Shown: positions 26,994 to 48,717 of the stretch, in pieces | Numbering within the stretch: position 1 is the stretch's first letter | Layout: each line of letters starts with the position of its first letter | Source: Natronomonas sp. CBA1123 | GTDB taxonomy: Archaea; Halobacteriota; Halobacteria; Halobacteriales; Haloarculaceae | Direction of reading: 5' to 3' | NCBI RefSeq assembly: GCF_009741925.1 | Contig: NZ_WPCC01000001.1 | Span: forward strand, 124,001-188,000 | Length of the DNA stretch: 64,000 nucleotides | Made by a program: the position numbers and the translations under genes | The notes under the pieces: generated by a model | Seen by the model: only the letters and a program-made list of their open reading frames with translations | What the model was told of the DNA's origin: nothing | Databases searched by the model: none

Positions 26994-28058
26994 TCAGTCG
27001 GCCTGCACCAGCCCCGGTAGCGCGTCGTTCGACAGCGACTGGAATCGTGCCTGCCCAATGTCGTGGACTTCTCGCGAGTAGCTCCGAATCTGGCTCTTCG
27101 ACGTTGGCACGACCGCCGACGCCGCCTCGACCACCTCGGCTTGCGTCAGATGTTTCTCGCTTGTCAGCCGATCGGCCGCGTACACCGCCGCGCCGGCCAT
27201 CGCCGTTCGATGCGTGCCTGGCCCGATGCCCTCGCTATCGGCCACGGCCAACAACCGCTCGCCGACACGCACCAACTCGATCGCCGCCTCGACATCGAGG
27301 ACGTCGTCCAGCGCTGCGACGACTTGATCGACCGCCCGGTCACGCACCGGTGGGGCATCCACATCCGTCTCGATGCGAATCTTCCGCGCGCCGGCACACA
27401 CTCGATCCAGCGACGCTTTCGCGTACTGGGCAACATCCGAAGGGTCGCGCTCGATGCCGGCCTTGCGGGCTGCTAACTGCACGGCCCCCGCCGCCAGCGC
27501 CTCCCAGGGCATCCGGCCAGCGGGCAATCGCTCGCGTTTGGCCGCCTTCAGATACCAGCCGGCTTCGGTCTGGACGTGTTCGGGAATCCCGAGATTCGCC
27601 CCGAGCATCCCGATATCGCGCATCCCCTCATTCAACCGCTGGTTCCGCCGGTCGTGCATCGTGAAGCGCTTGTGTCGCCGCCGCAGTCGCTCCATCTTGT
27701 CCTTCCGCTCCGACGACAACGTGTTGCCCTTTCCGTCCGTCGAGAGGAAGAACGTCGTCACGAGGCCCTTGTCGACCCGGAGTTGATTCGTTGGCTCACA
27801 CGCCCACTCACCGCTTCGATCGTCCGTCGTCGGTGCATGGTCCTTCAGCGTCGGCGTCCGATCCAGCGTCTCGACGCGCACGACCAATCCACAGTCCGCA
27901 CACACCGACTCGTGACCCCGCTTACGCACCCGGCCGTCACACTCTGGACACGTCGCCTGCCACTCGGCGCCACGCACGTCGACGACGCGCTCCGCGTCCG
28001 TCTCGTTTGTTTCCGATTCGACCGAATCTTCAAGTTCGATAATTGCCTTAGAACTCAT
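26994..28058 (-). CDS. tfb: Transcription initiation factor IIB (TFB)
   Basis: 354 residues from the ATG at 28058 (MSSKAIIELEDSVE). Zinc ribbon CPECDGRVRKRGHESVCADC at about 37-57, then a B-reader/linker region and two cyclin folds (about 150-230 and 245-340) with TEKH-like TQAEVVEAASAVVP in the second. TFB recruits RNA polymerase to TATA/BRE promoters. This copy is more divergent than the second one at 34948. The frame extends upstream to 28232, but that part is the GC-rich cassette. It is flanked on both sides by the repeated non-coding cassette. Confidence 0.85.
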   Translation of the reverse strand: MSSKAIIELEDSVESETNETDAERVVDVRGAEWQATCPECDGRVRKRGHESVCADCGLVVRVETLDRTPTLKDHAPTTDDRSGEWACEPTNQLRVDKGLVTTFFLSTDGKGNTLSSERKDKMERLRRRHKRFTMHDRRNQRLNEGMRDIGMLGANLGIPEHVQTEAGWYLKAAKRERLPAGRMPWEALAAGAVQLAARKAGIERDPSDVAQYAKASLDRVCAGARKIRIETDVDAPPVRDRAVDQVVAALDDVLDVEAAIELVRVGERLLAVADSEGIGPGTHRTAMAGAAVYAADRLTSEKHLTQAEVVEAASAVVPTSKSQIRSYSREVHDIGQARFQSLSNDALPGLVQAD

Positions 28059-28071
28059 TGGGACATCGCTC

Positions 28072-28520
28072 CCGAAGGCGCTCACTGAGCGCCCGACGCC
28101 CCGTGTCCTCGCACGGGGATTTTCCTCACAACCGACCCGACCAGTCACGACTGGACTGCGCGCTCTCGCTCGCGCCTTCGCGAGCGCCCCCTGGGCGCGA
28201 GCGAGAGCGCGCCACAGACGGGGAAGAAACAAGCCGCGCGCGGGCGTCCTGCCGAGCGAAGCGAGGCAGGGCTCGGAAGACGAACGAAGTGAGTCTTCCG
28301 GCGACCTGAGCGGTGCGCTCGTCCAGCGGAGTAAGCGTCGGGGGTGAGCATTTGCGCAACCCCCGGCGCTTACCCGCTGGCGTCGAGACCATATTCATTT
28401 CAGCCCGGAACGGGCGCGAGCGGTGCGGAGAGCGCCCGCATGCCCGGAATGGTCGGTCGCGAGAGCGCACCGCCAGCAGCGCCGAGCGCGGCGAACCGAG
28501 AGCTACTCACCGAGCGAACC
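28072..28520. repeat. GC-rich cassette repeat, 5' flank (copy A)
   Basis: Upstream of the TFB gene. It shares long blocks with 41118-41505 upstream of the RPA-like gene: GACCAGTCACGACTG, CCAGCGGAGTAAGCG, GCTTACCCGCTGGCGTCGAG, CAGCCCGGAACGGGCGCG, ATGCCCGGAATGGTCGGTCG and CAGCGCCGAGCGCGGCGA. Several blocks are self-complementary. Copy A holds an extra segment at about 28230-28310 absent from copy B. No credible protein is encoded. Confidence 0.8.
28158..28212. repeat. Long hairpin inside cassette copy A
   Basis: Perfect 19-bp inverted repeat GCGCGCTCTCGCTCGCGCC (28158-28176) and its complement (28194-28212) with a 17-nt loop. The same structure is present in copy B. Confidence 0.85.
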
Positions 28521-28887: not shown

Positions 28888-29379
28888 TTACTTTTCAGCG
28901 TTCTTTAGGACCTGCGAATATAGCGCATCAGAAATCCAGAAACCTGCTTCACGGAGGGCGGCAAGCTCTCGCTCTAAGTCCACGTTGCCGGCGTTAGCTC
29001 CCTTGAGCAATACACCGATTACTCCCGTGACAGTCAAGCCATGATCGCGAGCGACGCGTCGGCCTTCTTTCTCATCCAAGAGGATGAGCTCGGCATCCTG
29101 CCCTATCGCGTAACAAATCGCGGCTGTTTCACCACGATCCAATTGCCGAAGTATTTCGATGAACAGGTCCGAGCGCTCCACCTCAACCACGTTTAGGAAT
29201 CCTTCGTCTCGCAGCTCACGGAGAGCGTTCAACCCGGCATCTCCTTCAGTGAGTTCACCCCAAACCTGATCCGGAATCGAAATACCGCTAAATTGGGCTC
29301 TGAGAAGGTCGAGTTGATCGATGAGTGCGAGATTCAAGAGTGGTGATGTATCCGAGACCACAAGATCACTACTGGGCAT
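28888..29379 (-). CDS. DUF3368 PIN-like toxin
   Basis: 163 residues from the ATG at 29379 (MPSSDLVVSDTSPLLNLALI). PIN-like acidic residues are seen in VVSDTSPLLNLA, in RGETAAICYAI, and in AELILLDEKEGRRVA, the last being the DUF3368 signature. The ATG overlaps the end of the UPF0175 gene by 11 bp, so the two are translationally coupled. Predicted RNase toxin of a type II module. Confidence 0.8.
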   Translation of the reverse strand: MPSSDLVVSDTSPLLNLALIDQLDLLRAQFSGISIPDQVWGELTEGDAGLNALRELRDEGFLNVVEVERSDLFIEILRQLDRGETAAICYAIGQDAELILLDEKEGRRVARDHGLTVTGVIGVLLKGANAGNVDLERELAALREAGFWISDALYSQVLKNAEK

Positions 29380-29614
29380 ATTCGAAGTCTTCAGCAAGTT
29401 CAGCTTCGGTGTAGTGTCGAGGGATTTCTCGTTCGCCGAGGAGAGAATGGAACTCGCGTTTAGACATCTCGGCTAACGCACGGGCTTTGCCAAACGAGAG
29501 AATATCGCGTGCGTAGAGTGACACTGCTAACTCCTGCTTCATTGCCTTCGATCGCTCTCCTTCAGGAATTCGCAACGCGTCATACACCTCATCGTCAATT
29601 TCGATGGTGGCCAT
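29369..29614 (-). CDS. UPF0175 antitoxin
   Basis: 81 residues from the ATG at 29614 (MATIEIDDEVYDALRIPEGE). KQELAVSLYARDILSFGKAR and AEMSKREFHSLLGEREIPRHY are the UPF0175 HTH motif that partners DUF3368 toxins. I rejected the longer frame from 29731 because its first 39 residues are unlike the family. AT-rich sequence lies immediately upstream. Confidence 0.8.
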   Translation of the reverse strand: MATIEIDDEVYDALRIPEGERSKAMKQELAVSLYARDILSFGKARALAEMSKREFHSLLGEREIPRHYTEAELAEDFEYAQ

Positions 29615-29827
29615 AGATAAATATGGGATTACATGATTCTTGAGTGTTTGGCCCTCAGTGCTGGCGCGACCGCGCACTTGAGATCGAGAGAGTGGGATCG
29701 CAAACAGTACCCACTCCGACGACTCAGTCATATCTGACTGCTGCCCACCAGGCCGACGGGCTGAAGCCCGAGAACGTTCCTGCGTAGAGAACGCCCATAT
29801 CGATCAGCAGACGCACCTATACAGGAC

Positions 29828-29926
29828 CTAGTCGATATCGTCTTCATCCGTTTCAGTGCCGGAACTGACTCGGCCTTCTTGCATGCGTCGTTTGTCCTCA
29901 TCAGAAAGCGGGACCGTCGACTCGCG
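29828..29926 (-). pseudogene. Relic of a VapB-type antitoxin C-terminus
   Basis: The minus strand reads LRESTVPLSDEDKRRMQEGR, then VSSGTETDEDDID and a stop. This matches the C-terminus of the intact antitoxin at 41681 (FRESTVPLSEAEKEAMQAGR, ISSGVETDEDDID). The N-terminus is missing: a different frame (29901-30089) runs into it. A truncated copy without a toxin. Confidence 0.7.
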
Positions 29927-30089
29927 TAATGATCTCTTGCGGCTGACCAACGATACAGACGTTCTTTGGTTGCACGACAATTATGGCGATTCGGGGCTCA
30001 TCGTATACGACGAATAAATCTTTCGCGTCCTTCCGCCGCAATATCAACACATCACCGGTGGCACCCACAACCTGAGGGGCGAGACGCAA
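29901..30089 (-). CDS. Small hypothetical protein or fragment
   Basis: A 62-residue frame (MRLAPQVVGATGDVLILRRK and so on) with a beta-rich, plausible protein-like core (DLFVVYDEPRIAIIVVQP). Its last codons run out of frame into the VapB relic, so it may be the 3'-shortened end of another gene. No family recognised. The remainder of 29615-30165 holds a GGGCTGAAGCCCG hairpin at about 29758-29772, possibly an IS end. Confidence 0.3.
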   Translation of the reverse strand: MRLAPQVVGATGDVLILRRKDAKDLFVVYDEPRIAIIVVQPKNVCIVGQPQEIITRVDGPAF

Positions 30090-30165
30090 AGCACGAGCGA
30101 TGTGGGGGCACCATTTCTTTCAACGATAAACAATTAGTATAATCGCCTGAAGGTTTCGCCCAACG

Positions 30166-31584
30166 ATGTCGTCCACTGACAGCGGTGACACAGCGCCGGA
30201 ACTCACACTCGGTCGGGATCCCGATGCTCTCGGTAAAACGGTGGCGCTGCCGCCTGGCGCGCTCGATGGCGGCTGTTACGTCGCCGGCAACCGCGACCAG
30301 AGGACTGCCATCGTTCAGCGATGGTGTGTCGAATTGGCAGCAGCGGGACGCGGATTTTGTTATATCCACCCGTCTGACCCATCGCCACGCGACCTTCTGG
30401 CTCGACTTCCCCAGGAACGCCTCGAAGACGTCGTCTGGATCGACGTGGGTCGATGGCAAGTGGCCTCGCAGTTAGATGTGCCAGCGGTAGCGCGCGTGGC
30501 GATCAACCCATTCGAGGCACCGCCAGATCAGGACGCGTTCACGACCGATCCGGTCGCCATCAGAGTGAATGCGTACATGGATGCGGCAACAGTGTGGGAC
30601 CGGTTCGACACCGCTGTCGCTCCCATCCTCTCGGCGATCCTGCCCGCGTTGTTCGAGGGTAAGGAGCCGCATTACGAGTATACGAAGGCGCTCAGGGAGC
30701 CCGATCTCAAGGATTCCTTCGAAGCCCTCGAGGAACTCGAAGCCCTGGATTCGTTGACACCGTTCGAGCTGGCCCAAACACGCGAAGGCCAACCTTTACG
30801 GCTTGCAGCATCACTCATCAGCGGGCCGCTCGACCCCGCCCCAAGCAATCCACTGCTCGGTGACTCGACCTACGATCCGGCTCGGGCCCTCACGGAGAAC
30901 GAGATCATCTTGATTACAGGTGACATCGACCCGTTCAAAGAGACGAATCCAACGATTGATGGCACTCTCAGCACCCACCTCTTGGTGGCGGCTGTGTGCT
31001 GTCGGCTCTGTGAGGGCGCCCAAACGACAGCGACCGACAGCACCTTTCCGGTCGTCGTCGATGGTGTCGATACACTGGTTCCCGGGGACGGTGATCTGTT
31101 CCGGAAGCTCCTCGCCGACCCCATGTCGCTAGCTCCTGTCTACGCCGGCCCCCCGGCGAGGACGCTTGCAGAGCCGGTCCACATCAGTGTCGAGGAACAC
31201 GCCGAGACCCGCGTCGTCGTCACGGGCGGCGCCGGAAGTGAGCCTGAATCACGGGACCGAAATCAGGAAATCAAAGCCGCCCTCTCGAACGGGTCGCTGG
31301 ACGCCGTCGAACACTACTTCGAACAGGAGGAGACCGGAACGGTTGGGGACGGCCCGCTCTGTTGGCTCCGGACGAACGCCGCCGGGCGATTGGTTGGACC
31401 CGAGGGGGCACAGCAGTCGATGCGGCCGGCGCTGGCTCCCGACCCGCCAGACACCCGGCGCGGCCAGGAGGCTGTCGCCGCGGCGATCACACGAAGCATC
31501 GATCGCTACGGCGGAGAGTTACAAACGGTGCCCGAGGAATCAAAATCACGGGCTCGCGAGCGATACAACGATTCCAGTCGCTAG
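30166..31584 (+). CDS. TraD/VirD4-like coupling ATPase homologue with lost P-loop
   Basis: 472 residues. The opening LDGGCYVAGNRDQRTAIVQR aligns with the position of the Walker A loop in TraD/VirD4-like ATPases, but the G-x4-GK-S/T residues are gone. The next segment, FCYIHPSDPSPRDLLARLP, ERLEDVVWIDVG, follows that family's DPHGDL...IPxER..DVV pattern. VVVDGVDTLVPGDGDLF sits at the Walker B position without an acidic pair. It is probably a non-hydrolysing partner of the active ATPase at 44959. Start ATG at 30166. The C-terminus is charged. Confidence 0.55.
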   Translation: MSSTDSGDTAPELTLGRDPDALGKTVALPPGALDGGCYVAGNRDQRTAIVQRWCVELAAAGRGFCYIHPSDPSPRDLLARLPQERLEDVVWIDVGRWQVASQLDVPAVARVAINPFEAPPDQDAFTTDPVAIRVNAYMDAATVWDRFDTAVAPILSAILPALFEGKEPHYEYTKALREPDLKDSFEALEELEALDSLTPFELAQTREGQPLRLAASLISGPLDPAPSNPLLGDSTYDPARALTENEIILITGDIDPFKETNPTIDGTLSTHLLVAAVCCRLCEGAQTTATDSTFPVVVDGVDTLVPGDGDLFRKLLADPMSLAPVYAGPPARTLAEPVHISVEEHAETRVVVTGGAGSEPESRDRNQEIKAALSNGSLDAVEHYFEQEETGTVGDGPLCWLRTNAAGRLVGPEGAQQSMRPALAPDPPDTRRGQEAVAAAITRSIDRYGGELQTVPEESKSRARERYNDSSR

Positions 31585-31656
31585 CCACGCGCCGACACCA
31601 CTATTCGTTTTGCTGTCCTGTTCTCTCTGAAAGCGGCTGGAATCAATCTCTCCGTG

Positions 31657-31689
31657 TTAACCAACAAAAACAGTTACTATGTTGGTTAA
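31657..31689. promoter_or_regulatory. TTAACCAAC inverted repeat (copy 2)
   Basis: TTAACCAAC, 15-bp spacer, GTTGGTTAA. Arms are identical to copies 1 and 3, but the spacer is 2 bp longer. It lies between the TraD-like gene and the convergent SWIM gene. Confidence 0.75.
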
Positions 31690-31719
31690 TTTGCTAGCCA
31701 CAGATTCCTGCTGCGGCTG

Positions 31720-32223
31720 TTACTGGTTTCTCGACGTGTTTTCGCCGGTCTGAGAGGATCCCCGACAACAGTCTTCGAGATCCTTCTCGCGCATCGCCTC
31801 TCGTCCACAGGCCCGACACCGAACGTACGACTCCCCGGTGGGATTCCCATGCTTGTCGAGTTCCTGCAGCGGGCCTTCGATCCGGCCACGGGTGGGTACT
31901 TGGGAAGGATCTCTCACAGATTCCTTCACGCCACCATCCGCACGTGGGCGTTCTGGAAGCCGACCGTCCGGCGTTGGAACGGTTCGGTTCTGAATCTCCA
32001 TGTCGACTCGTCGGAGATGTTTACACCGTTCGACAGCTGTTTTCTGTTGATCCGGGCAGGTGCACCCCTTACGGAGTACATCGACGCGATACACGTTTCC
32101 GGATTCCGACTGCACCGTGTATATGCCGCCCGTTCGACGGAGGGTGACCGTCATATCCTCCGTTCGTGCTCGTTTCGTCCGCTTCTTGATGTCGTCTTGG
32201 CTGTCTAGTTCGTCTCCTTGCAT
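31720..32223 (-). CDS. SWIM zinc-finger protein
   Basis: 167 residues from the ATG at 32223 (MQGDELDSQDDIKKRTKRAR). The SWIM motif C-x-C-x(n)-C-x-H is GCTCPDQQKTAVERCKHLRR at about 53-72. A second Cys pair (VRCRACGREA, EDCC) is near the C-terminus. SWIM proteins bind DNA or protein partners. The exact role is unknown. A truncated paralogue lies at 34331-34449. A GC hairpin lies 30 bp upstream of the start. Confidence 0.75.
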   Translation of the reverse strand: MQGDELDSQDDIKKRTKRARTEDMTVTLRRTGGIYTVQSESGNVYRVDVLRKGCTCPDQQKTAVERCKHLRRVDMEIQNRTVPTPDGRLPERPRADGGVKESVRDPSQVPTRGRIEGPLQELDKHGNPTGESYVRCRACGREAMREKDLEDCCRGSSQTGENTSRNQ

Positions 32224-32252
32224 GGAATCACGGGTGCAGGGCTGGACTCGCC

Positions 32253-32280
32253 TGCGCCCGCCCGTCGGGCGCACGACAAA
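32253..32280 (-). promoter_or_regulatory. GC hairpin start-proximal element (copy 1)
   Basis: TGCGCCCG and CGGGCGCA arms (32253-32260, 32266-32273) around CCCGT, then ACGACAAA. It lies 30 bp upstream of the SWIM gene start. It shares the design and the central CCGTC with four other copies in the island. Confidence 0.6.
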
Positions 32281-32383
32281 ATGGAGCCAGTACGTCACGC
32301 GCCGAATATTTATCAGCGCCAGGTGGATGGCAACTCAGCCGACCACACCTTATTTAGGAAAATAATGCTTCACCAAAATACTA

Positions 32384-32391
32384 TATTACTC
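32384..32391 (+). promoter_or_regulatory. TATA-like element of the HTH gene
   Basis: CTATATTA centred about 23 bp upstream of the ATG at 32410, the expected distance for a leaderless transcript. Confidence 0.4.
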
Positions 32392-32409
32392 TACCTCTTG
32401 TGTAACTGC

Positions 32410-33000
32410 ATGAACGACCGAACGCCACCAGACGAGTTCACAGACATCAATGAGGCGGTCGGTGAGGAGTGGGCATCGGAGACGACACCGTACGAGCGTA
32501 TTCGTCACGTCATCGCCCACACCTACAGCCCGACGTCGGCCGATACAGTTGCTGAAGCCGCACGAACGGCTCCAAAAACGGCCCGTAAGCATCTGAATAC
32601 ACTGGCGGATGAGGGCTTCGTGAAGACGACGACCGGCGAGAACGGGGGGATGCTGTATCGCCGGTCTCCCGAATCGTTGGTCGTCGAACAGGCTGCGGAT
32701 ATCCTTGAGCATCTCTCGACTGACGAACTCGCAACGCGGATTCGAGAGATGCGAGCCCAGCTCACCGAGTATCAGTCCGAATTCGGTGTCGACTCCCCCG
32801 AAGCGCTTGCCGTCGACCAGACGAACCAAACACTCTCTGACTCCGACTCCCCAGACAGTGAAATCGATTCGGAGACGATTCGGGAGTGGAAAACCCTTCG
32901 TCGCAATCTCGCATTCGCGAACGCTGCCCTTTCGATCGGGAATGCAGAGCGATTCATCGACGGCGACCGCCGCTCAAGCGATGATAGCGTCCCGGTGTGA
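32410..33000 (+). CDS. DUF7342-like winged-helix regulator, candidate antitoxin of a TumE pair
   Basis: 196 residues. The winged helix is at about 25-85 (TPYERIRHVIAHTYSPTSAD, TARKHLNTLADEGFVKTTTG, MLYRRSPESLVVEQAADIL), followed by helices. Same architecture as the protein at 24606, with better-conserved residues. I chose the ATG at 32410 (MNDRTPPDEFTDINEAVGEE), which follows a TATA-like box. The next gene starts 4 bp after its stop. Confidence 0.7.
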   Translation: MNDRTPPDEFTDINEAVGEEWASETTPYERIRHVIAHTYSPTSADTVAEAARTAPKTARKHLNTLADEGFVKTTTGENGGMLYRRSPESLVVEQAADILEHLSTDELATRIREMRAQLTEYQSEFGVDSPEALAVDQTNQTLSDSDSPDSEIDSETIREWKTLRRNLAFANAALSIGNAERFIDGDRRSSDDSVPV

Positions 33001-33003
33001 GCG

Positions 33004-33486
33004 ATGCGGGGCTCTCCGAACGAATCCGAAGCACATACACTCCGCGGAGCGACGGATCGTCCGGCGCTGCTCACGATTCGTGATACCATCCAAGAGATGG
33101 AGCCGCTTGCGACAGCCGAACTTGACGAGTATCTCAATCCATCGGTCCTGACGGTTGCCTTCGACGACGGCCTGTGTGAGGCCGGTGAGGCTCGATTCGA
33201 CATCCAGTGGACGACACAGGACGACTACGAATACCACTATACGGACGCAGAGGGAGTGAATCTTCGCTGGGGAGCTCATCCACATGGAGGCGACTATATT
33301 CACGTTCCCGGACTCGAACACTACCACCCGCCACCCACTGCGATCTCAACGCCTGACGAGGTCGAAAAGTCGTGTATCACACAGACACCCGAAGTGTTAG
33401 TCACTCGCGCCGTACTCAAACTCTGGCGGGTTGCCTATCATACTGAGTCATATCTACCGTTGAACTCCGGAAGTAACCCACCGTGA
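33004..33486 (+). CDS. TumE/DUF6516-like protein, candidate toxin
   Basis: 160 residues. IQEMEPLATAELDEYLNPSV begins the conserved part, and EARFDIQWTTQDDYEYHYTD, RWGAHPHGG, HYHPPP and LVTRAVLKLWRVAY match the paralogue at 25130 and the His-rich TumE-type core. It is coupled to the upstream HTH gene. The last 110 bp and the following spacer are repeated at 34156-34297. Toxin activity is inferred. Confidence 0.5.
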   Translation: MRGSPNESEAHTLRGATDRPALLTIRDTIQEMEPLATAELDEYLNPSVLTVAFDDGLCEAGEARFDIQWTTQDDYEYHYTDAEGVNLRWGAHPHGGDYIHVPGLEHYHPPPTAISTPDEVEKSCITQTPEVLVTRAVLKLWRVAYHTESYLPLNSGSNPP

Positions 33487-33533
33487 GAGTTGTTCGGCCA
33501 GAGTGAGAGTCCACGCCATGAGACACGTCCCTG

Positions 33534-33785
33534 TCAGGCGTGCCGGTCGATCCACTCACAGAATGCGGCGAAGTCGTGTGCCCCCGCACTCTCGGCGATG
33601 TCGCGAAGTGTCCCGGTACGGAGTTCGTCGTGCAGAGGGACTGTCACTTGCCGGCGGTCTTCCTTGTTTGACGGGTGTTCGTAGTACAGTTGCGCGTGGT
33701 CACCGGTCGTCCGTCGCCACTCGAAGCCTCCTGTATTCACGAGTACTTTCACGACCTCCATGCCGGAGAATGTCCGCCGCCCCAT
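33534..33785 (-). CDS. hicA: HicA toxin
   Basis: 83 residues. MGRRTFSGMEVVKVLVNTGG, then FEWRRTTGDHAQLYYEHP, is the double-stranded-RNA-binding-like HicA/YcfA fold, with the catalytic His in GDHAQL. TVPLHDELRTGTLRDIAESA is the second half-motif. It follows the HicB gene by 3 bp on the minus strand. HicA proteins are mRNA interferases neutralised by HicB. Confidence 0.85.
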   Translation of the reverse strand: MGRRTFSGMEVVKVLVNTGGFEWRRTTGDHAQLYYEHPSNKEDRRQVTVPLHDELRTGTLRDIAESAGAHDFAAFCEWIDRHA

Positions 33786-33788
33786 CAG

Positions 33789-34058
33789 TTAGTCGAGCAC
33801 GTCCGGAGGGTCTTGGTCGCCTGTGACGTTGTCTGCAGGATCGATGCCCGCTGCCCGAAGCTCATCGTCGCTCGGGGCCCGACCACGCTCGCCGTTGTAC
33901 AACCCCACAGCGTCGTCGAGGTTCTCTAAGGCTGTCTCCCGGGACTCACCCTGCGTGGTGACGCCCGTGTCAACGTCTTTGGCGATCCACCAGTCGTCCT
34001 CCTGCCAGAGTCGGATCTCTCCGTCGTGGAACTCCCCGTCCTGGGTCGAACTGGCCAT
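33789..34058 (-). CDS. hicB: HicB antitoxin
   Basis: 89 residues from the ATG at 34058 (MASSTQDGEFHDGEIRLWQE). The pattern DDWWIAKDVDTGVTTQGESR, ETALENLDDAVGLYN is the partly degraded RNase H-like HicB fold. Acidic C-terminus. Upstream partner of hicA in the same operon. The earlier ATG at 34127 would add residues with no family match. Confidence 0.8.
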   Translation of the reverse strand: MASSTQDGEFHDGEIRLWQEDDWWIAKDVDTGVTTQGESRETALENLDDAVGLYNGERGRAPSDDELRAAGIDPADNVTGDQDPPDVLD

Positions 34059-34155
34059 CTCGCGTGATATTGGGCGACGGGCCGTATAAGCGTTCGGCGA
34101 ACGCTCCTCGCGATGAATCATGAGCACCGATGGATGAACGGCAACGTGACCGATT

Positions 34156-34297
34156 TACACAGATACTCGAAGTGTAAGTCACTCGCGCCGTACTCAAACT
34201 ATGGCGGGTTGCATATCATATGGACTCGTATCTGCCGTTGAACTCCGGAAGTAACCCACCGTGAAAGTTGTTCGGCCAGAGTGAGAGTCCACGCTCT
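34156..34297 (+). pseudogene. Duplicate tail of the TumE-like gene
   Basis: About 140 bp nearly repeat 33378-33517, including the end of the TumE-like coding region (GTAACCCACCGTGA) and the spacer TTGTTCGGCCAGAGTGAGAG. Only the 3' end of the gene is present. It abuts an IS-like hairpin at 34299. Confidence 0.8.
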
Positions 34298-34298
34298 G

Positions 34299-34330
34299 AC
34301 ATCCTCCCACGGCTATATCCGTGGGATTTC
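34299..34330. mobile_element. IS200/IS605-like end hairpin
   Basis: GACATCCTCCCACGG, six-base loop, CCGTGGG (arms 34306-34312 and 34319-34325). This is the style of hairpin at IS200/IS605 ends in haloarchaea. It sits exactly at the joint between the duplicated TumE tail and the truncated SWIM gene. Confidence 0.5.
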
Positions 34331-34449
34331 GCCTCGCTAGCTCTGTGAATGCCGCCCGTTCGACGGATGGTGACCGTCATCTGCTTCGCTCGTGCTCGTT
34401 TCGTCCGCTGGTCAATGTCGTTGTGACTGTCTGGTTCGTCTCCTTGCAT
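34331..34449 (-). pseudogene. Truncated SWIM-protein paralogue
   Basis: From the ATG at 34449 it reads MQGDEPDSHNDIDQRTKRAR, then AKQMTVTIRRTGGIH. This is nearly the same as the start of the protein at 31720-32223. It is cut before the zinc-binding residues by the IS-like hairpin. The upstream GC hairpin (34479-34499) is preserved. Confidence 0.8.
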
Positions 34450-34478
34450 GGATTCAAGGGAGCAGGGCTGGATTCCCC

Positions 34479-34506
34479 TGCGCCCGCCCGTCGGGCGCAC
34501 GACAAA
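34479..34506 (-). promoter_or_regulatory. GC hairpin start-proximal element (copy 2)
   Basis: TGCGCCCG and CGGGCGCA arms with the same five-base loop as copy 1, in front of the truncated SWIM gene. Confidence 0.6.
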
Positions 34507-34539
34507 ACGGAACCGGTACATCGGGCGCTAAATAATGAT

Positions 34540-34590
34540 ACTATAGAGTATCATACTTCGGAGTATCATACTTCGGAGTACGATTTCCAA
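34540..34590. repeat. GAGTATCATACTTC tandem repeats
   Basis: ATAGAGTATCATACTTCG is followed at once by GAGTATCATACTTCG and GAGTACGATTTCC. The related words GAGTATGATTTC and GAGTACCATTTTCC occur at 49741-49870, upstream of the intact ATPase. Probably a shared regulatory region. Confidence 0.6.
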
Positions 34591-34923
34591 AAGTACTATT
34601 CCGAGTACACGATCACGAACACGGGACAATGGTGGTATGGCGAACACGAGATCGACGCCGTCGGCCTGACCACCGGCGAGACACTGATCGTCGGTGAATG
34701 CAAATTCCAACAGTCACCCCTCGGATACGATGCGTTATCGAATCTAGAGGATCACACCGACGAACTTCAATGGTCTCCACAAAGCGGGAGTGACCGGGTC
34801 GTCGAGTACGCCCTCTTCTCCCGAAGGGGGTTCAAACAATCGGTCACGGAAGCAGCCAGTCAACGAGACGACCTACGTTTGTTCAGCCTCACAGATGTCG
34901 TGACTGCACTCACAGAAACTTAG
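34591..34923 (+). pseudogene. C-terminal remnant of a DUF234 archaeal ATPase
   Basis: About 105 codons in frame: NTGQWWYGEHEIDAVGLTTG, TLIVGECKFQQSPLGYDAL, YALFSRRGFKQSV and DDLRLFSLTDVV. They align with the last 110 residues of the intact ATPase at 50043 (GQWWFKEHELDVLGLTTEGL and so on). The AAA domain is missing, and the DUF234 nuclease-like part alone remains. The frame extends upstream through unrelated sequence, so no start is assigned. Confidence 0.75.
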
Positions 34924-34947
34924 GCCTAGGCCAGGCTTTGAGCCGAC

Positions 34948-35880
34948 TCAATTCGCCGTACGTTCGATTTCTCGATACCGTTCCCGAACCGTCACTTTAG
35001 ACACGTCCGCCGCATCCGCGATTTCGGCTTGCGTCAGGTTCTCTCCGGTGTCCTGACCAGCGACGTACAAGGCGCCTGCTGCAGCGCCCGCGGGATTACA
35101 GCCGTTCCTCAGGACTTCGCCCAATGCATCTTCGAGAAGCCTCCGCGCTTGACACTCCGTCTCATTGCTCACATCGGTTTCCGATGCAATCTGTGGGAGA
35201 TACTGCTTCGGGCCAGCCGGTGGCACGGGTAACTCGAGCTCCCGATTCAACACGGTGTACCCCAACCGGACCTTCCCGTCATCGAGTTTCGACACTCGAG
35301 CGATCTCCTCGAACGTCCGCGGATACTCGTTGAGTCGGCAGACCGCATACACGCTCCCGGAGGCAATCGTTTCGATCGACCGACCTCGAAGCACATCTTC
35401 GTTCTGTGCCGTTCGGAACAGCTGACACGCCTGGTTTCGAAGACTCTCCGAGAAACCGAGGGCAGACGTCATCCGCCGAATCTCGACCAGCCCCGACAGG
35501 AGATTCCGATTCGCTTTCGAGCCGATTTTCGCTCGTGTATGCTCGCGACGCAACCGACCGAGTTGCCGCCGTTTCTTCCCGCCGATCGTTCGCCCCTCGG
35601 AATCTTTCTTCCACCCGATTTCACTCCCGATACCGTGGTCGTGCCGGGCGACCGTGTTCGGCGCCCCTGTCCGTCGTCGTTCCGAGGCGTTTTCGTCGGC
35701 CTTGCAGTACTGCGGGCCGTGGTCCAGTGCTTCGTCGTTGAGAATGAGTCCACAGTCGTCACAAACCGTCTCGTGAGCGTTCGTCGTGACACGCCCATCA
35801 CATTCCGGGCAACTGTTCTGTTCGTCTTCCTGTACGTCCTCATCGAACGTCTGCTCGTAGATGTTTCTCGAAGCCATCAC
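34948..35880 (-). CDS. tfb: Transcription initiation factor IIB (TFB), second copy
   Basis: 310 residues. Zinc ribbon CPECDGRVTTNAHETVCDDC at about 23-42. The linker with GIGSEIGWKKDSEGRTIGGK matches the B-reader region of TFBs (D-x-GLGTEIG in canonical ones). Two cyclin folds follow, ending in TQAEIADAADVSKVTVRERY, the canonical HTH of the second repeat. This copy is closer to standard haloarchaeal TFB than the one at 26994. The start could be 35880 or the next codon, also ATG. Confidence 0.9.
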   Translation of the reverse strand: MMASRNIYEQTFDEDVQEDEQNSCPECDGRVTTNAHETVCDDCGLILNDEALDHGPQYCKADENASERRRTGAPNTVARHDHGIGSEIGWKKDSEGRTIGGKKRRQLGRLRREHTRAKIGSKANRNLLSGLVEIRRMTSALGFSESLRNQACQLFRTAQNEDVLRGRSIETIASGSVYAVCRLNEYPRTFEEIARVSKLDDGKVRLGYTVLNRELELPVPPAGPKQYLPQIASETDVSNETECQARRLLEDALGEVLRNGCNPAGAAAGALYVAGQDTGENLTQAEIADAADVSKVTVRERYREIERTAN

Positions 35881-35901
35881 AGATCACGAGGCACGCGTTC
35901 C

Positions 35902-35934
35902 TGCGCCCCTCGCCCGTCAGGGGCCAATAAAACA
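35902..35934 (-). promoter_or_regulatory. Start-proximal element with TATA box (copy 3)
   Basis: On the minus strand TTTATTGGCCCCTGACGGGC is followed by GAGGGGCGC. A TATA-like TTTATT precedes an inverted repeat AGGGGC/GCCCCT, about 22 bp before the TFB start. Identical over 27 bp to the element at 37994. Confidence 0.7.
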
Positions 35935-36052
35935 CAACGGCGGTGCTGCTACGGACGTCTCGGTGCGGAGAACTGTCGCTTGCCTCGCTCTATTCGAGAC
36001 TCTGTGGAGAGACTGAACACAGAGGTTCCAGTCTCAGTTTCGCTGCCACTGA

Positions 36053-36487
36053 TCAACTCGGGTCGTAGGGATTCGTCGCTGTATCGAGTCGATAGATATC
36101 ATCGACGGCATCGAAGTCGTCGTCAAACGCATACAGATACCCGAGTCCCTCGGTTTGCATATACGCAATAATACAGGCGTCAACGAACGAGAGGGGTTCG
36201 TGCTGCCTGAACAGGGATTTCCCTGTCGCGAAGGCAGCAGTACTGAGTGACTCGATATGGAACCGTGCGTTTTCCTCGATTCGATCAAGGAGATCGACAG
36301 CAGCCTCGTGACCGGCATGGGTTGTGAGGCCATTCAGCGTTTCCGCGAGGACGTACTCAAGAACGACTGCCTCTGGAAGCGATCCAGTGTCGACACCACG
36401 AATGACCGGCAGTGCGGTATCATGGGAACTATCGCGTCGATACGCTGCCGCAAAGAGGACTGTCGTATCGATGAGTGCGCGCGGCAT
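36053..36487 (-). CDS. vapC: VapC-type PIN domain toxin
   Basis: 144 residues. MPRALIDTTVLFAAAYRRDS has the first Asp, VVLEYVLAETLNGL the conserved Glu, EPLSFVDACIIAYMQ the third acidic residue, and LYAFDDDFDAV the fourth. Complete PIN active site, so a probable RNase. The AbrB-type antitoxin gene ends directly before its ATG on the same strand. Confidence 0.85.
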   Translation of the reverse strand: MPRALIDTTVLFAAAYRRDSSHDTALPVIRGVDTGSLPEAVVLEYVLAETLNGLTTHAGHEAAVDLLDRIEENARFHIESLSTAAFATGKSLFRQHEPLSFVDACIIAYMQTEGLGYLYAFDDDFDAVDDIYRLDTATNPYDPS

Positions 36488-36739
36488 CTATTCGGTTTCG
36501 ACGCCCCAAGCGTCATGCTCGTCCACTACATCGGTTGTCGCTTCGCCATCGTAGCCATCGAACTCGGCGAACGTTCCCGCCCGTTGTTGGACGACTTCGA
36601 CACGGACACTACCATCGGCCTCGAGATGCCAACGAAGTTGGTCACCATCATCAATATCGAGTTCACGTCGAATCCGTGCAGGGATGTTCGCCTGATTCCC
36701 TGATACCTTACTTTCGGCGTCGATTCGGTCGCTGCTCAT
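36488..36739 (-). CDS. AbrB/SpoVT-type antitoxin
   Basis: 83 residues from the ATG at 36739 (MSSDRIDAESKVSGNQANIP). SKVSGNQANIPARIRRELDI, GDQLRWHLEADGSVRVEVV is the swapped-hairpin AbrB DNA-binding fold. Acidic tail to bind the toxin. The neighbour downstream is the PIN toxin with no gap. A perfect palindrome lies 33 bp upstream, a probable autoregulatory operator. Confidence 0.8.
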   Translation of the reverse strand: MSSDRIDAESKVSGNQANIPARIRRELDIDDGDQLRWHLEADGSVRVEVVQQRAGTFAEFDGYDGEATTDVVDEHDAWGVETE

Positions 36740-36771
36740 ATCCACCAGTACGTCCTCGGCCGTCAAAAATC

Positions 36772-36789
36772 TAGTGTGACATCACACTA
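36772..36789. promoter_or_regulatory. Palindromic operator of the AbrB-VapC module
   Basis: TAGTGTGA, CA, TCACACTA is a perfect 8-bp inverted repeat with a 2-bp centre, followed by TATATGG. Its place between TATA-like sequence and the antitoxin start suits repression by the AbrB protein. Confidence 0.55.
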
Positions 36790-36807
36790 TATGGAAATTT
36801 AACCGGC

Positions 36808-37968
36808 TCAGTCAGCTGCCTCAGCGAAGCGCTCTCGGAGTTCAGCTTCCCGCTCTTCGAACGTTTCGGCTTTCTCACGGACGCCCTCACTCAACTGCTC
36901 GATTTGGGCGAGTGCAACTTGGCTCTCCAAGCCGGTCTGTCCGTCGCCATCTGTTTCCGCTTGGGACTGCTGTTCGTACTCGCGTTCGACGCGTTCAAGG
37001 GTCCCATCGGGGTTGAACAGGATGTCGTTGGCTGTCCGGACGTAGCTGTCGAGTGAATTACCCTCTTTGCCGCGGAAGAAGTGCGTCAGCGCGTACGTTG
37101 CACCCGAATGCAGTGTCCACATGTCGATTTCGAACGGATCAGCGGCGTTCGCTCGGGCATCACTCGCCGCCTGTTGGGCGAGATACTCCGGAAAGCCAAG
37201 CAGTTCGTAGAAGCCCTCGAGGTCGAACGGTACATCGGGGAATGAGACGGTGAGGTCCTGAGCGTCAGTGATGAATCCCAACAGGTCGTCTGCGACGAGT
37301 TCGAGTTGTTCGAGGACGGATTCCCACCACGGGCCGAAGCCATCCACATTGCCCACGTGCTTGACGACTTCTCTGTCGGTTAGTGAACGAATCGAGTTCG
37401 CACAGTAGCTATCTCGGGCAAATCCTTCGACGTAGACCGCGTTGTTTCCGAAGAAATCGTAGCCGGAAGTGACGCCCATTGTAATCGGCTCGTTTCGCCC
37501 AGGAAGCGTCACTGAGAGGCCATCGAACATGATGTCCATGTGGACCTCACCGCCGCCGCGGTACTGTCTGATCTCGCCGAAAACGAGTTCCGAGAGTGGA
37601 GTATCCTCGTAGGTTTCTGCACGCAGGACGTCTTCGAGTGCACCGTACACGTCAGTGGGATTGATGATGGCGTAACTATCCGTCGGAATATTGAACAACG
37701 GCGTTTCGGCATCAGCGTCTTCGTTCGCTTGGTCGATGAGTCGATTCGGTTCGACGACCGCGTTGAAGCGGTCCGTCTCAACCCATTCGCCCGTGTAGGG
37801 GTTTTCGTAGCCGACCTTGGTCTCGGTCGCCCGTGGAAGCTCTCGGATCGCTTCGGCAAAGGTCATCACGTCGTCGGTGTCTTGTCGTGCCTCGTACCAC
37901 TCCGGAAGGTCGGTATCTGTTCTCGGGTCGACGCCAGCGAACACGGTGGATGTCTCTGGAGATTTCAT
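36808..37968 (-). CDS. Plasmid-type hypothetical protein (DUF932-like)
   Basis: 386 residues, acidic. AVVEPNRLIDQANEDADAET, YAIINPTDVYGALEDVLRAE, GVTSGYDFFGNNAVYVEGFA and YCANSIRSLTDREVVKHVGN are reminiscent of DUF932 proteins carried by plasmids and phages. C-terminal coiled-coil-like segment (EKAETFEEREAELRERFAEA). The function is not known. It carries the same start-proximal element as the TFB gene at 34948, which suggests common control. Confidence 0.6.
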   Translation of the reverse strand: MKSPETSTVFAGVDPRTDTDLPEWYEARQDTDDVMTFAEAIRELPRATETKVGYENPYTGEWVETDRFNAVVEPNRLIDQANEDADAETPLFNIPTDSYAIINPTDVYGALEDVLRAETYEDTPLSELVFGEIRQYRGGGEVHMDIMFDGLSVTLPGRNEPITMGVTSGYDFFGNNAVYVEGFARDSYCANSIRSLTDREVVKHVGNVDGFGPWWESVLEQLELVADDLLGFITDAQDLTVSFPDVPFDLEGFYELLGFPEYLAQQAASDARANAADPFEIDMWTLHSGATYALTHFFRGKEGNSLDSYVRTANDILFNPDGTLERVEREYEQQSQAETDGDGQTGLESQVALAQIEQLSEGVREKAETFEEREAELRERFAEAAD

Positions 37969-37992
37969 TCGATCTCACGAGGGACTGCTTCG

Positions 37993-38022
37993 AGCGCCCC
38001 TCGCCCGTCAGGGGCCAATAAA
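37993..38022 (-). promoter_or_regulatory. Start-proximal element with TATA box (copy 4)
   Basis: Minus strand TTTATTGGCCCCTGACGGGC then GAGGGGCGC, the same 27 bp as copy 3, about 26 bp before the ATG at 37968. Confidence 0.7.
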
Positions 38023-38199
38023 CCTCAACAGTCCCGTGGAAGTGCTCACTTAGTGAGCGGCTTCACCAGTGTGCTGAATTGAGGGTGCGTCTCTCACACG
38101 GAGATTGGTTTGGGTTTGCTAGAAGGAATCGGTCGATACAGGTATTACAGACAACGGTCAGTACAGTCTCTGTCTTCAGCATGCCACTCGACGAGTGCG

Positions 38200-38625
38200 T
38201 CAGTCGTAGTAACTCAGGCGCTCAACAACGTCCGAGAAGGCAACGTTCTCACGTACATCAGTAATCTCGATGGCGACACGTTCGCCCTGTTCAGTATCGG
38301 GAACGATGACGACGAACCCACGCTCGACACGGGTGATACCGTCGCCTTGATCGCCAATACCATCAATCTCCACGCGTCGGGTTTCGCCTTCCTCCACGGG
38401 TGGTTTCTCGGGATCGGTCTGACTGCCTTGTCGAATCTCTGTATCTGCGATCTCGCTCTCGTCCGCTTCGTTCGATGGTGACGGAAAAACCGCCACGCGG
38501 TACGTCTCACCCTGCTGAAGGTTGTCAAGTCGAATCTCTTGTTCTGGTACTTCAATCAAATATGAGTCAGCTCGCTTTTCGACAGTGGCAGAGAACAGAC
38601 AGCGAAGGTGATCGGAAATTTCCAT
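38200..38625 (-). CDS. TRAM domain protein
   Basis: 141 residues from the ATG at 38625 (MEISDHLRCLFSATVEKRAD). The C-terminal TRAM barrel is EGETRRVEIDGIGDQGDGIT, RVERGFVVIVPDTEQGERVA, IEITDVRENVAFSDVV. The N-terminal half is a second short beta segment found in haloarchaeal TRAM proteins. TRAM proteins bind RNA and can act as RNA chaperones. The gene sits alone on the minus strand. Confidence 0.85.
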   Translation of the reverse strand: MEISDHLRCLFSATVEKRADSYLIEVPEQEIRLDNLQQGETYRVAVFPSPSNEADESEIADTEIRQGSQTDPEKPPVEEGETRRVEIDGIGDQGDGITRVERGFVVIVPDTEQGERVAIEITDVRENVAFSDVVERLSYYD

Positions 38626-39288
38626 CAGTGGTCTCTTCAACGAGATACCGAGACAGAACACTTCATTCTACTGTCTGACGTATTACAGCGCTAAACCAGC
38701 CTCACTAGCCGGACAGTCGATCCAGGCTTCACCTGGTTCCACGTTCAATTCAGGAAACTCACGAATCGATCGATCCGTTGAACTACCTGGTCGTTGTCAC
38801 GAACGGCGTGCGAGATACAGCGGGTACACTGATTGAGTTTCGCTGGTCCACCCACTCGACGAACAGTGGATCGAACGTCAGCAGCACGCCAATCCGAACG
38901 ACTCGGCGTTCATCGTCCCCGTTGCCCTCGAGGACGAACCCCTTCCAGCTTCGGCGGCGACGGCGCTCGCGACGCGGCCGATCTCGTTGACGAGTGGCAC
39001 GGGAGCGACGAATCGGTCAGGCTCGTCGATGCTCCGTGCAGTCAGCAGGACACAGATAGCTGACCCAGTTGACACACCAACCGGGACGGTCGCAGCCGAG
39101 TATTTCCGCCCTGCCCCTCGGGCCATTTTTGTTCGCCATTATCGGCGAACACGAAGCTTGTTCGCCCCAATAGCCGAACACATCTCCGATCACAACAATC
39201 ATCGGTATCCAGAGTATGATATTCTACGATTCACCAAACGCTTTTGAATATGTACATACAACGTACTTACAATAAGGGACGTTGTGCT
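38626..39288. other. Gap without a supported gene
   Basis: Several frames are open here, but none shows a family motif. The plus frame around 38845-39060 (VHPLDEQWIERQQHANPNDS) looks like protein debris. An inverted repeat, ACAACGT (39258-39264) and ACGTTGT (39279-39285), lies just before the CopG gene and may be its operator. Confidence 0.4.
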
Positions 39289-39591
39289 ATGGGCAATACG
39301 AGAGTAAACTTCCGGCTTCCGGACGATCTGGTGGAGAAAGCGGATGTCGCAGCGGCGGTCAACAGGAAAAATCGGACTGAGATCGTCAAGGAGGCGCTTC
39401 GAGACTACCTTGAAGAAATCGAGGACGACGAGACATTCAAGGAAGCAGTCGTTGAGCTCTACCTTGACGGCCAAATCGGATTCGACGTTCTAGCGGAATT
39501 TATCGGGCGTCAAGACGCTGAATCCGTTCGAGCATCGAAGGCCCTGCTTGACCAAGGCGAGGACGTGGCCGAGGATATGGCCAATCTCTAG
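39289..39591 (+). CDS. CopG/ribbon-helix-helix antitoxin
   Basis: 100 residues from the ATG at 39289 (MGNTRVNFRLPDDLVEKADV). The ribbon-helix-helix VNFRLPDDLVEKADVAAAVN, RKNRTEIVKEALRDYL is clear. The C-terminal half is helical, with FDVLAEFIGRQDAESVRASK as in antitoxins of PIN-like partners. The toxin-like gene follows after 17 bp. An inverted repeat overlaps the promoter region. Confidence 0.8.
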   Translation: MGNTRVNFRLPDDLVEKADVAAAVNRKNRTEIVKEALRDYLEEIEDDETFKEAVVELYLDGQIGFDVLAEFIGRQDAESVRASKALLDQGEDVAEDMANL

Positions 39592-39608
39592 AGGGACCTC
39601 GATATCGA

Positions 39609-40094
39609 ATGATTGTCGCTGACACAAGCGCTCTCATCTCTCTCGCTTCGATCGGTATTCTCGACATCTGTCTCACCGAATTCGAGACGCACACTACGGA
39701 CACAGTGCGACAGGAGCTCGAGGAAACAAGTGAATACGAAGATAGCCACGCCAACGCCGCTGACACCGTACTCGAGAGCATCGATCGGAAAGCGATTCAC
39801 CAAGTCAACAGTGAATTCACATCATCCCGCGTGGACAAGGGTGAAGGGAGTTGTGCAGTACTCACGAACGAACTGAAGGCGGAATTCCTGATTACCGATG
39901 ACCTTCGGGCACTCCCAGAGCTCCAGACGCTTACCGACGCTCAAGTCGCGATTTCACCGATCGTGTTGAAAGCTCTCGTCAAGAGAGGCGAACTAGAACA
40001 TGACGGGGCGGTGTCAAAACTGGAACAACTTGCCGATGCGCGTGACTGGCTCGGTGCACCCATCTATCGGCGCGCGAAGAATCTCTTCGAGTAG
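39609..40094 (+). CDS. PIN-like toxin
   Basis: 161 residues. MIVADTSALISLASIGILDI has the first Asp. DKGEGSCAVLTNEL has the central acidic residue. AEFLITDDLRALPEL carries the C-terminal acidic pair. Related to the DUF3368-type PIN branch. Preceded by the RHH antitoxin gene. It ends 24 bp before cassette repeat copy B. Confidence 0.8.
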   Translation: MIVADTSALISLASIGILDICLTEFETHTTDTVRQELEETSEYEDSHANAADTVLESIDRKAIHQVNSEFTSSRVDKGEGSCAVLTNELKAEFLITDDLRALPELQTLTDAQVAISPIVLKALVKRGELEHDGAVSKLEQLADARDWLGAPIYRRAKNLFE

Positions 40095-40117
40095 CGCATA
40101 CCGGAGCTCTATCGCAA

Positions 40118-40260
40118 CTGGTCGTGGCTGCGCGCGCAGCGAGACGCGACTACAGGGAGAGTCTCGGGCAGTGCGATCGGTGAGCGAAGCGAGCCGTGAG
40201 CACGAGCGAGCACGGAGCGGTGGGTGGGGAGGCGGTTGGCGGGTGGAGGCCACAATAAAA
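40118..40260. repeat. Cassette repeat, 3' flank (copy B)
   Basis: Shares GGCTGCGCGC, GAGACGCGAC, CTCGGGCAGTGCGA, GGTGAGCGAAGCGAGCCG and GCGAGCACGGAGCGG with 26827-26985. It follows the RPA-like gene on the minus strand just as copy A follows the TFB gene. Confidence 0.75.
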
Positions 40261-40282
40261 AAGAAAAGAGCTGCCTACGCGC

Positions 40283-41098
40283 TCACCACCAAGCCGCTCG
40301 TTCGGGGAAGTGAACCATCGACCGTCCGGTGAGCGCGAGTGACGCCCGGCCTTGGTACCAGCTTACCGCCGCATCCCGGATACGCACCGTCTGACCTTCC
40401 GCGATGAGAGGTTGCTTCGATCGCTTCCACACCGTCAACTTGGTTTTCCCTGTCTCGTCTTCGAGCAAGCCGACTTGTTGCATCGAGGGACTGCTGGGTT
40501 CCCACAGCGTCTCGACTGTCGCTTCGACATCCACCCACTTGCGACCCACCTGCACCAACTCACCGAGCGCCACGATCGCCCCCGGCGCCGCCTGTACGTC
40601 CTCGACCATGTCCAACACAGCGTCCTGCATCGATCGCCCGCTCTGGACCCGGGCGGCCAACTCTCGTTCGATGGCTTCGACACCGAGACCACCGCAACAC
40701 TTTCCGTCCAACCGGATGGCCTGTTTCTCGACCTCCCGCCGCGTCTCGACGTCCAACTGCTCACGTGGATCTGCTTCACTGGACAGCCCACAGTGTTTCG
40801 CCTGCGTCATCTCCCGGCACAGCTCCTCCCGCCGACTCGTCTGCGCGCAATCTTCACGTTCACGAGTCCGCCGTTTCTCAGCTTCTCGCGCTTCCCACTT
40901 CTCCTGAGCTTCCAGCGTCATTCCGTGTGGGTGGTCCTGTTCGTCAGCCGCCGCGATTGCATCACGAACGTCCGAGTCAATTTTCGCTTGGGTCTGCAAC
41001 TCCACCGTTGGTCGCAGCTCCGGGGTGTCCTCGACTACGTCTTGTTCTGATTCCTGTTCGACCGAGACCTTTTCACGAATTGGGTTGTTACGTTGCAT
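40283..41098 (-). CDS. RPA-like OB-fold single-stranded DNA-binding protein
   Basis: 271 residues. The first 170 are charged and helical, with Cys/His residues (EELCREMTQAKHCGLSSEA). The C-terminal 100 form an OB fold: VQVGRKWVDVEATVETLWEP, MQQVGLLEDETGKTKLTVWK, RSKQPLIAEGQTVRIRDAAV, SWYQGRASLALTGRS. This is the archaeal RPA-type pattern. A plasmid-borne ssDNA-binding protein could help replication or transfer. Both flanks carry the same non-coding cassette as the TFB gene at 26994. Confidence 0.7.
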   Translation of the reverse strand: MQRNNPIREKVSVEQESEQDVVEDTPELRPTVELQTQAKIDSDVRDAIAAADEQDHPHGMTLEAQEKWEAREAEKRRTREREDCAQTSRREELCREMTQAKHCGLSSEADPREQLDVETRREVEKQAIRLDGKCCGGLGVEAIERELAARVQSGRSMQDAVLDMVEDVQAAPGAIVALGELVQVGRKWVDVEATVETLWEPSSPSMQQVGLLEDETGKTKLTVWKRSKQPLIAEGQTVRIRDAAVSWYQGRASLALTGRSMVHFPERAAWW

Positions 41099-41117
41099 TG
41101 GATCTCTCCGATCCGAA

Positions 41118-41505
41118 GGCGCTCACAGAGCGTCCGACGCCCGCGACCTCACTCGCGGGTTTTCCACACAATCGAACCGACCAGTCACGACTGCGCGCTC
41201 TCGCTCGCGCCTTCGCGAGCGCCCCTTGGGCGCGAGCGAGAGCGCGCCACAGACGGTGCACACAACCAGCCGCGCGCGCCGACCCGCCCGGAACGCGCGT
41301 CCAGCGGAGTAAGCGTGGGGGGGGGGGTGAGCAGCCACGCCGCGCAACCCCTCGCGCTTACCCGCTGGCGTCGAGACCATATGCACTTCAGCCCGGAACG
41401 GGCGCGGGCGGGGCGGAGAGCGCCCGCATGCCCGGAATGGTCGGTCGCGAGCGCGTGGAGGGCGGCAGCGCCGAGCGCGGCGAGCCGGCTACCACTCACG
41501 GGGTA
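41118..41505. repeat. GC-rich cassette repeat, 5' flank (copy B)
   Basis: Matches 28072-28520 in order, with a shorter middle. Contains a G10-like run near 41320 and the 19-bp-stem hairpin at 41193-41247. No protein is encoded. A weaker third relative (GGAATGGTGTG, GGCGGCAGCGCTGA, GCTACTCACCG) lies at about 44555-44615. Confidence 0.8.
41193..41247. repeat. Long hairpin inside cassette copy B
   Basis: GCGCGCTCTCGCTCGCGCC (41193-41211) and its exact complement (41229-41247), 17-nt loop. Same arms as in copy A. Confidence 0.85.
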
Positions 41506-41553
41506 ACCGTCGATTCCAGCCGGCCAGCTAACGAATGAAAACACGTCTGCTAA

Positions 41554-41584
41554 TTAACCAACATACTCGGGAGTCGTTGGTTAA
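41554..41584. promoter_or_regulatory. TTAACCAAC inverted repeat (copy 3)
   Basis: TTAACCAAC, 13-bp spacer, GTTGGTTAA, at the outer end of cassette copy B, about 100 bp upstream of the VapB-type gene. Confidence 0.8.
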
Positions 41585-41680
41585 GACGAAGGGTACCGAT
41601 TCCGTGCTTCTGCGGTCGAGCTTCGATGCCACCGTAGTGGTCGTGGAAACGTTTACACAGTTTCAGACGAAACTTTCAGT

Positions 41681-42384: not shown

Positions 42385-42414
42385 CTACCATCCTCCTGTT
42401 CTCTCCGTAGCTCG

Positions 42415-42540: not shown

Positions 42541-42545
42541 AGCGC

Positions 42546-42716: not shown

Positions 42717-42749
42717 TGCTTTACTGAATATTCTCGGTGGGCCCGTTTA

Positions 42750-43148: not shown

Positions 43149-43194
43149 GCGCTTGGTCTTTTCAAGCCCTACTTAATTATTGGTTTCGTCCCGT

Positions 43195-48714: not shown

Positions 48715-48717
48715 CTA

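Follow-up and report, generated by a model that had tools for sequence, protein, structure and literature searches.

A coupling-protein homologue without a P-loop in haloarchaea, candidate partner of a type-2 coupling ATPase

How might a coupling-protein homologue act once its P-loop is gone, and would it act on a working relative encoded in the same genome? This question is raised by the ORF at 30166-31584 (+ strand) of the window, by which we mean the whole 64-kb stretch of DNA that was analysed, originating from contig C9 of a 3.45-Mb draft assembly in 89 contigs (G000). A preliminary description, in which the coordinates of this ORF were correct, raised the possibility that its product is a non-hydrolysing partner of the active ATPase encoded at 44959. 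The protein has 472 aa, with a predicted RecA-like core and helical insert and no evident membrane helix; an N-terminal transmembrane domain was absent in a crude hydropathy scan, the highest 19-residue mean being 1.34, at residue 264. It stops shortly after the core, and the long C-terminal region of many relatives is missing. The ATG is preceded, at a distance of 23-32 nt, by a TATA-like element, TTAGTATAAT (30134-30143, + strand), which the two closest copies share unchanged; the spacing of this element would presumably fit a leaderless haloarchaeal promoter. On the other side, a small gene (31720-32298, - strand) with a weak, sub-threshold match to the SWIM zinc finger is part of a collinear block common to the window and genome G391, and a homologue of it lies downstream of the P-loop-less copy in locus L031. 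No family of Pfam or NCBIfam matched the window protein at E-values up to 1, including the curated T4CP models (TrwB_AAD_bind and TraG-D_C in Pfam, and those of NCBIfam), and PADLOC and PHROGs gave no match for it.

Motif loss and conservation of the P-loop-less group

Alignment with relatives confirmed that GNRDQRTA (codons 41-48, at 30286-30309 on the + strand, as computed from the ORF start) occupies the site of the Walker A loop GxxGxGK[ST]; the window protein and its two closest copies have one residue fewer there. The preliminary description was also right in stating that the surrounding pattern is kept, since the block AGxGFCYIxP...LLxRLPxxRLxDVVWI around the lost P-loop is retained. 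The alignment comprised 32 rows, with seven P-loop-less members and 25 Walker-A-bearing relatives, the latter corresponding to 26 non-redundant relatives minus one ORF, L097, dropped as unrelated. Walker A was found in none of the seven and in all 25 relatives. In the window protein, HP (codons 68-69, 30367-30372, + strand) replaces the DP of the DPK motif and DG (codons 299-300, 31060-31065, + strand) replaces the DE of Walker B; the latter reads DG, EG or DR in 7/7 P-loop-less members and DE in 25/25 relatives. The DPK lysine, the glutamine on the strand that follows and a conserved asparagine are likewise each missing from every member of the group and present in every relative. What is left over is the first Walker A glycine, usually the last threonine, and the Walker B aspartate (6/7). 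His68 is invariant in the seven members and missing from the 25 relatives; together with Gly328-Pro329 and Arg349, which are also invariant among the seven, it is located at or near the former motifs. Judged by these replacements, the gene product is a pseudo-ATPase of the VirD4/TraD/HerA group, devoid of nucleotide-handling residues.

Among the other profile-matching ORFs read residue by residue, which came from the stretches fetched, GxxxxGK[ST] was kept in 59/60, some genes being counted twice; the single exception, L097, matches over a short C-terminal stretch only and looks unrelated. The loss in the window is more than a chance event, because copies 97% and 90% identical to it and four further members all lack the P-loop. 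An assembly error was ruled out, as independent assemblies share the same loss.

Profile searches recovered seven intact members in five genomes, namely the window, G391, G392 (two copies), G351 (two copies) and G412, the last belonging to another genus of the same family and the four others to the genus of the window. Their identity to the window protein is 97, 90, 43, 41, 37 and 36%, and the lowest pairwise identity among the seven is 31%. Among named genome contigs, the sole relative found was a 90% identical one in Natronomonas gomsonensis. Broken or partial copies were also found: one in G413 (L055), an extra fragment in G351 (L032), a short N-terminal fragment with a weak match (E about 2e-6) in G419 (L056), and a copy split over three frames in G491, which belongs to a different family (L081). 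Within the genus, 4/20 genomes are carriers, and a search of 146 genomes of the family gave full-length matches in these four and in G412. No further intact member was found in the 28 genomes of the family of G491, nor in samples of the class (391 genomes), order (392) and phylum (392); these three samples overlap and are not exhaustive, mostly the best 4 candidates per genome were scored, and carriers that the family search had detected went unnoticed. The P-loop-less group is thus rare and of narrow distribution.

The three closest copies are under purifying selection, with dN/dS values (Nei-Gojobori) of 0.26 between the window and G392 copy a, on 62.5 synonymous versus 52.5 non-synonymous changes, and 0.24 between the window and G391. 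By region, the former comparison gave 0.12 for residues 1-100, 0.57 for 101-200 and 0.48 for 301-400. The seven P-loop-less members fall on one side of a single branch (support 100/100) with a very long stem; the tree was midpoint-rooted and the composition of the group deviates, so that the group may or may not have arisen inside the type-1 ATPases. A viral origin was not retained: 128 viral stretches matched the search pattern and none encoded a relative, nor did PHROGs give a match. Likewise, none of 27 plasmid records covered 80% of the query, which speaks against a plasmid-borne family; the 20 of these 27 that were listed were all partial matches, 16 of them annotated as coupling-type proteins.

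Predicted fold

The preliminary description would have been contradicted by a lack of structural similarity to the RecA-like fold; such similarity was found. A model built from the seven P-loop-less sequences alone was of modest confidence (pLDDT 54.7, pTM 0.58) and gave DotL (6sz9; E 1.8e-6, Z 16.1) and TrwB (Z up to 15.7) as its best matches, while HerA (4d2i, Z 13.9) and the C-terminal part of DndH (DndH-C, 7es4, Z 14.9) were also matched, below or tied with T4CPs. When the 25 active relatives were added to the alignment, the 32-row model reached pLDDT 77.2 and pTM 0.83, with TrwB (1.2e-7) and DotL (1.8e-7), as well as HerA and Cag-beta, among the best matches. More weight is given to the seven-row model, because the active relatives could not steer it through the alignment. 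In both predictions a helix (43-59) begins almost immediately after a strand (37-41), which would leave no room for a loop of P-loop length, and helices are predicted for the region matching the helical insert. The window protein is therefore predicted to have a RecA-like fold with a helical insert, as in T4CPs. Sequence searches against solved structures returned nothing with either the window protein or the seven-member profile; the mixed 32-row profile, which includes the active relatives, detected DotL (2.5e-10) and TrwB (5e-5).

Association with the type-2 ATPase and genomic surroundings

The ATPase of the preliminary description is encoded at 44959-48714 (+ strand) and comprises 1251 aa with intact Walker A and B motifs, its P-loop reading GQSGTGKS, as described. 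It is a candidate partner of the P-loop-less protein and belongs to what we term type-2 proteins, which form a group separate from the P-loop-less members in the tree (100/100). By eye, its C-terminal 110 residues, with a conserved D...ExE after a winged-helix-like stretch, recall PD-(D/E)XK nucleases.

Linkage of the two genes, which would fit the proposed pairing of their products, was seen at some loci and not at others. The P-loop-less gene ends 111 bp upstream of a type-2 gene on the same strand in L052, and about 1.1 kb upstream of one, again on the same strand, in L032, where a MazE/PIN pair on the opposite strand lies between the two; this arrangement at two loci suggests joint action. 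The broken copy of L081 is 2.75 kb from a type-2 gene, in convergent orientation. In the window itself the two genes are 13.4 kb apart, and distances to the nearest type-2 gene rise to 26 kb for the G419 fragment, 33 kb in G412, 40 kb for G392 copy a and about 132 kb for the second copy of G351 (L034), the copies of G391 and G413 being far from any. Directly adjacent genes are thus seen for 2/7 intact copies, whereas 4/7 lie at 33 kb or more. In G391, the flanks of the window's island and the P-loop-less gene are present and the local type-2 segment is missing, only about 1.9 kb standing in the place of the window's 34165-48860 (approximate ends). Conversely, several type-2 genes (L058-L064) have no P-loop-less neighbour within the surrounding 12-16 kb.

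In a calculation that assumes uniform placement and uses hand-entered distances and gene counts, 3/10 copies within 3 kb of a type-2 gene compare with 0.07 expected (tail probability 4e-5), 7/10 within 40 kb with 0.53 expected, and 2/7 intact copies within 3 kb have a tail probability of 8e-4; these probabilities are too optimistic, as the null ignores island clustering and the common ancestry of the copies. Part of the loose linkage is indeed expected, because P-loop-less and type-2 genes alike are found in islands with many toxin-antitoxin and TFB genes. Co-occurrence of the two genes, named as a check in the preliminary description, was seen in one direction: all eight genomes with a P-loop-less copy or remnant also have a type-2 ATPase, and within the genus a substantial type-2 match was obtained in 4/4 carriers versus 4/16 non-carriers. 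Co-evolution of the two families was not upheld, as their identities do not mirror each other: between P-loop-less proteins, the window is closer to L052 (43%) than to L032 (37%), and between the type-2 neighbours the order is reversed (40% and 60%, respectively).

Several other genes were noted in these regions, neighbour genes being picked by a crude script as acidic, long ORFs. A dense run of toxin-antitoxin-like genes, including UPF0175/DUF3368 and a PIN gene at 36053, flanks and separates both ATPase-type genes of the window (28888-44348), with a small HicA/HicB-like pair, seen by eye, at 33534-34127. Paralogues of TFB-type transcription factors are encoded at 26994-28232 and 34948-35880 (both - strand), and this family occurs in 10/31 stretches around P-loop-less or type-2 genes, several stretches coming from one genome. 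The window also encodes an acidic protein of 386 aa (36808-37968, - strand) with no Pfam match and a close homologue in G392 (L070), and a pentapeptide-repeat protein of 624 aa (52748-54622). A primase-like gene is found near coupling ATPases in 10/31 stretches (L059, L060, L062, L063, L064, L068, L103, L102, L052 and L033), the member of L052 combining an NrS-1-type helix-bundle domain with matches to phage DNA primase families. The 64-kb window holds no tRNA, and hence no tRNA attachment site.

A local T4SS channel was looked for with a VirB4 profile of four rows, which had no match in the window, L032, L034, L051-L055 or L081. Genome-wide, it gave a substantial match in 6/8 genomes with a P-loop-less copy or remnant, no match in G392 and one interrupted 43-residue piece in G000. 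Downstream of the weak P-loop-less fragment of G419, a haloarchaeal T4SS-like cluster (L056:1675-8540, - strand) encodes a VirB4 homologue and membrane proteins. Should G000 and G392 truly have no intact VirB4 match (one of the two assemblies is a draft, and the profile has four rows), the pair cannot serve a complete home-made channel of that type there; it may serve mobilisation via another element, or something else.

Possible functions and comparison with known systems

That related species keep a dead version of the protein, often near the gene of a working motor, suggests a helper or a brake, not a motor. We tentatively favour a role as a non-catalytic subunit of the type-2 ATPase, or as its regulator, a reading that has a real, if not quite even, chance of being correct. 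The P-loop-less protein would act by binding: most likely it would dock on the type-2 ring, enter it, or contact the DNA/relaxosome substrate of that ring, and this binding would set assembly, substrate loading or activity, ATP being burnt by the type-2 protein alone. Since type-2 proteins occur in genomes of the genus that have no P-loop-less gene, it would be a modifier of the machine, not an indispensable component. The bolder proposal that the dead protein forms mixed rings with active type-2 subunits, as an asymmetric DNA pump, or poisons the rings of rival elements, is possible and rather doubtful.

The main rival reading, which we hold to be somewhat unlikely, is a free-standing inhibitor: as a dominant-negative or exclusion factor, the dead coupling protein, an orphan, would join or cap rival or incoming rings, or take their docking site, and thereby block transfer or mobilisation. 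Intact copies with no active partner nearby (L034, and G391 with its dN/dS of 0.24 against the window copy), toxin-antitoxin-like genes beside 5/7 intact copies (window, L053, L051, L052 and L032) and a sequence that matches type-1 coupling proteins and not the type-2 neighbours all point in that direction; the two loci where the gene stands just upstream of a same-strand type-2 ATPase, and the lack of a PADLOC match, do not. A further alternative, which we consider unlikely, is an adaptor, or a DNA-binding or relaxosome-recognition protein, in which the helical domain would have been retained to recognise the substrate and which would not enter a ring. The modelled helices of the insert region are consistent with it, and an excerpt of PMC7434980 assigns relaxosome recognition to the all-alpha domain of T4CPs, but the helical region is among the faster-evolving parts of the window protein (residues 101-200 as against 1-100).

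The type-2 ATPase could also be the centre of a non-conjugative DNA-processing or defence machine, combining a HerA-like pump and a nuclease. That two carrier assemblies (G392 and G000) gave no intact VirB4 match, that type-2 and type-1 proteins match PADLOC mad8 and two of them weakly HerA models, and that the predicted folds resemble HerA and DndH-C would agree with this. However, mad8 is unspecific, as it also matches the VirB4 homologue of L067, and other type-2 proteins are encoded in operons beside VirB4 homologues (L067 and L068), so that we hold this explanation to be improbable. Finally, broken or partial copies (L081, L055 and the fragments in L032 and L056) might suggest a recent pseudogene or meaningless relic. 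Seven intact ORFs diverging down to 31% identity, a dN/dS of about 0.25 in the closest three and invariant residues at former catalytic positions make this scarcely credible, and it was rejected for the window copy in view of its intact 97% and 90% identical counterparts and their dN/dS.

The favoured reading, a non-catalytic partner of the type-2 ATPase, is of interest because a natural group that has lost the whole catalytic set, and is kept as separate genes sometimes adjoining active relatives, offers a testable pseudo-enzyme regulating a DNA-pumping ATPase. Were it a ring member, it would bear on the tolerance of hexamers for inactive subunits; were it an inhibitor, it would be a transfer-exclusion device. 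The conjugation machinery of haloarchaea is, to our knowledge, little studied, and among the titles and abstract openings listed in the literature searched no P-loop-less coupling protein or pseudo-ATPase partner in a T4CP-like machine was described.

The annotated relatives are haloarchaeal type-1 ATPases ('TraM recognition domain-containing protein' or 'type IV secretion system protein VirD4', e.g. on the Haloterrigena sp. KLK7 plasmid NZ_CP149789). They have in common with the P-loop-less protein the RecA-like core, the LLxxLP..RLDDVVWI block and the helical insert, but they keep the Walker A, DPK, DE, Q and N motifs, none of which it has, and their open frames are mostly longer (mostly about 650-1130 aa), whereas it ends soon after the core. 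The type-2 ATPase at 44959 is also coupling-protein-like and linked at some loci; it differs by its intact motifs, by the length of type-2 open frames (mostly 1150-1390 aa) and by its group. TrwB of R388 (1e9r/1e9s/1gki/1gl7) and DotL/IcmO of Legionella (6sz9) appear alike in predicted fold, with 10-13% identity over the structural alignment; in contrast to them, the P-loop-less protein has neither an ATP-binding site nor an evident membrane helix. According to the same excerpt of PMC7434980, some T4CPs lack the N-terminal transmembrane domain, and T4CP Walker A mutants cannot accomplish conjugation. The pumping ATPases of the HerA/DndH type also resemble the modelled fold, but have the intact P-loop which is missing here. 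A similar idea is found in EccC of type VII secretion, in which degenerate ATPase domains place a non-hydrolysing domain of the FtsK/HerA group beside an active one; in EccC the degenerate and active domains are parts of one chain, whereas the P-loop-less protein is encoded by a separate gene.
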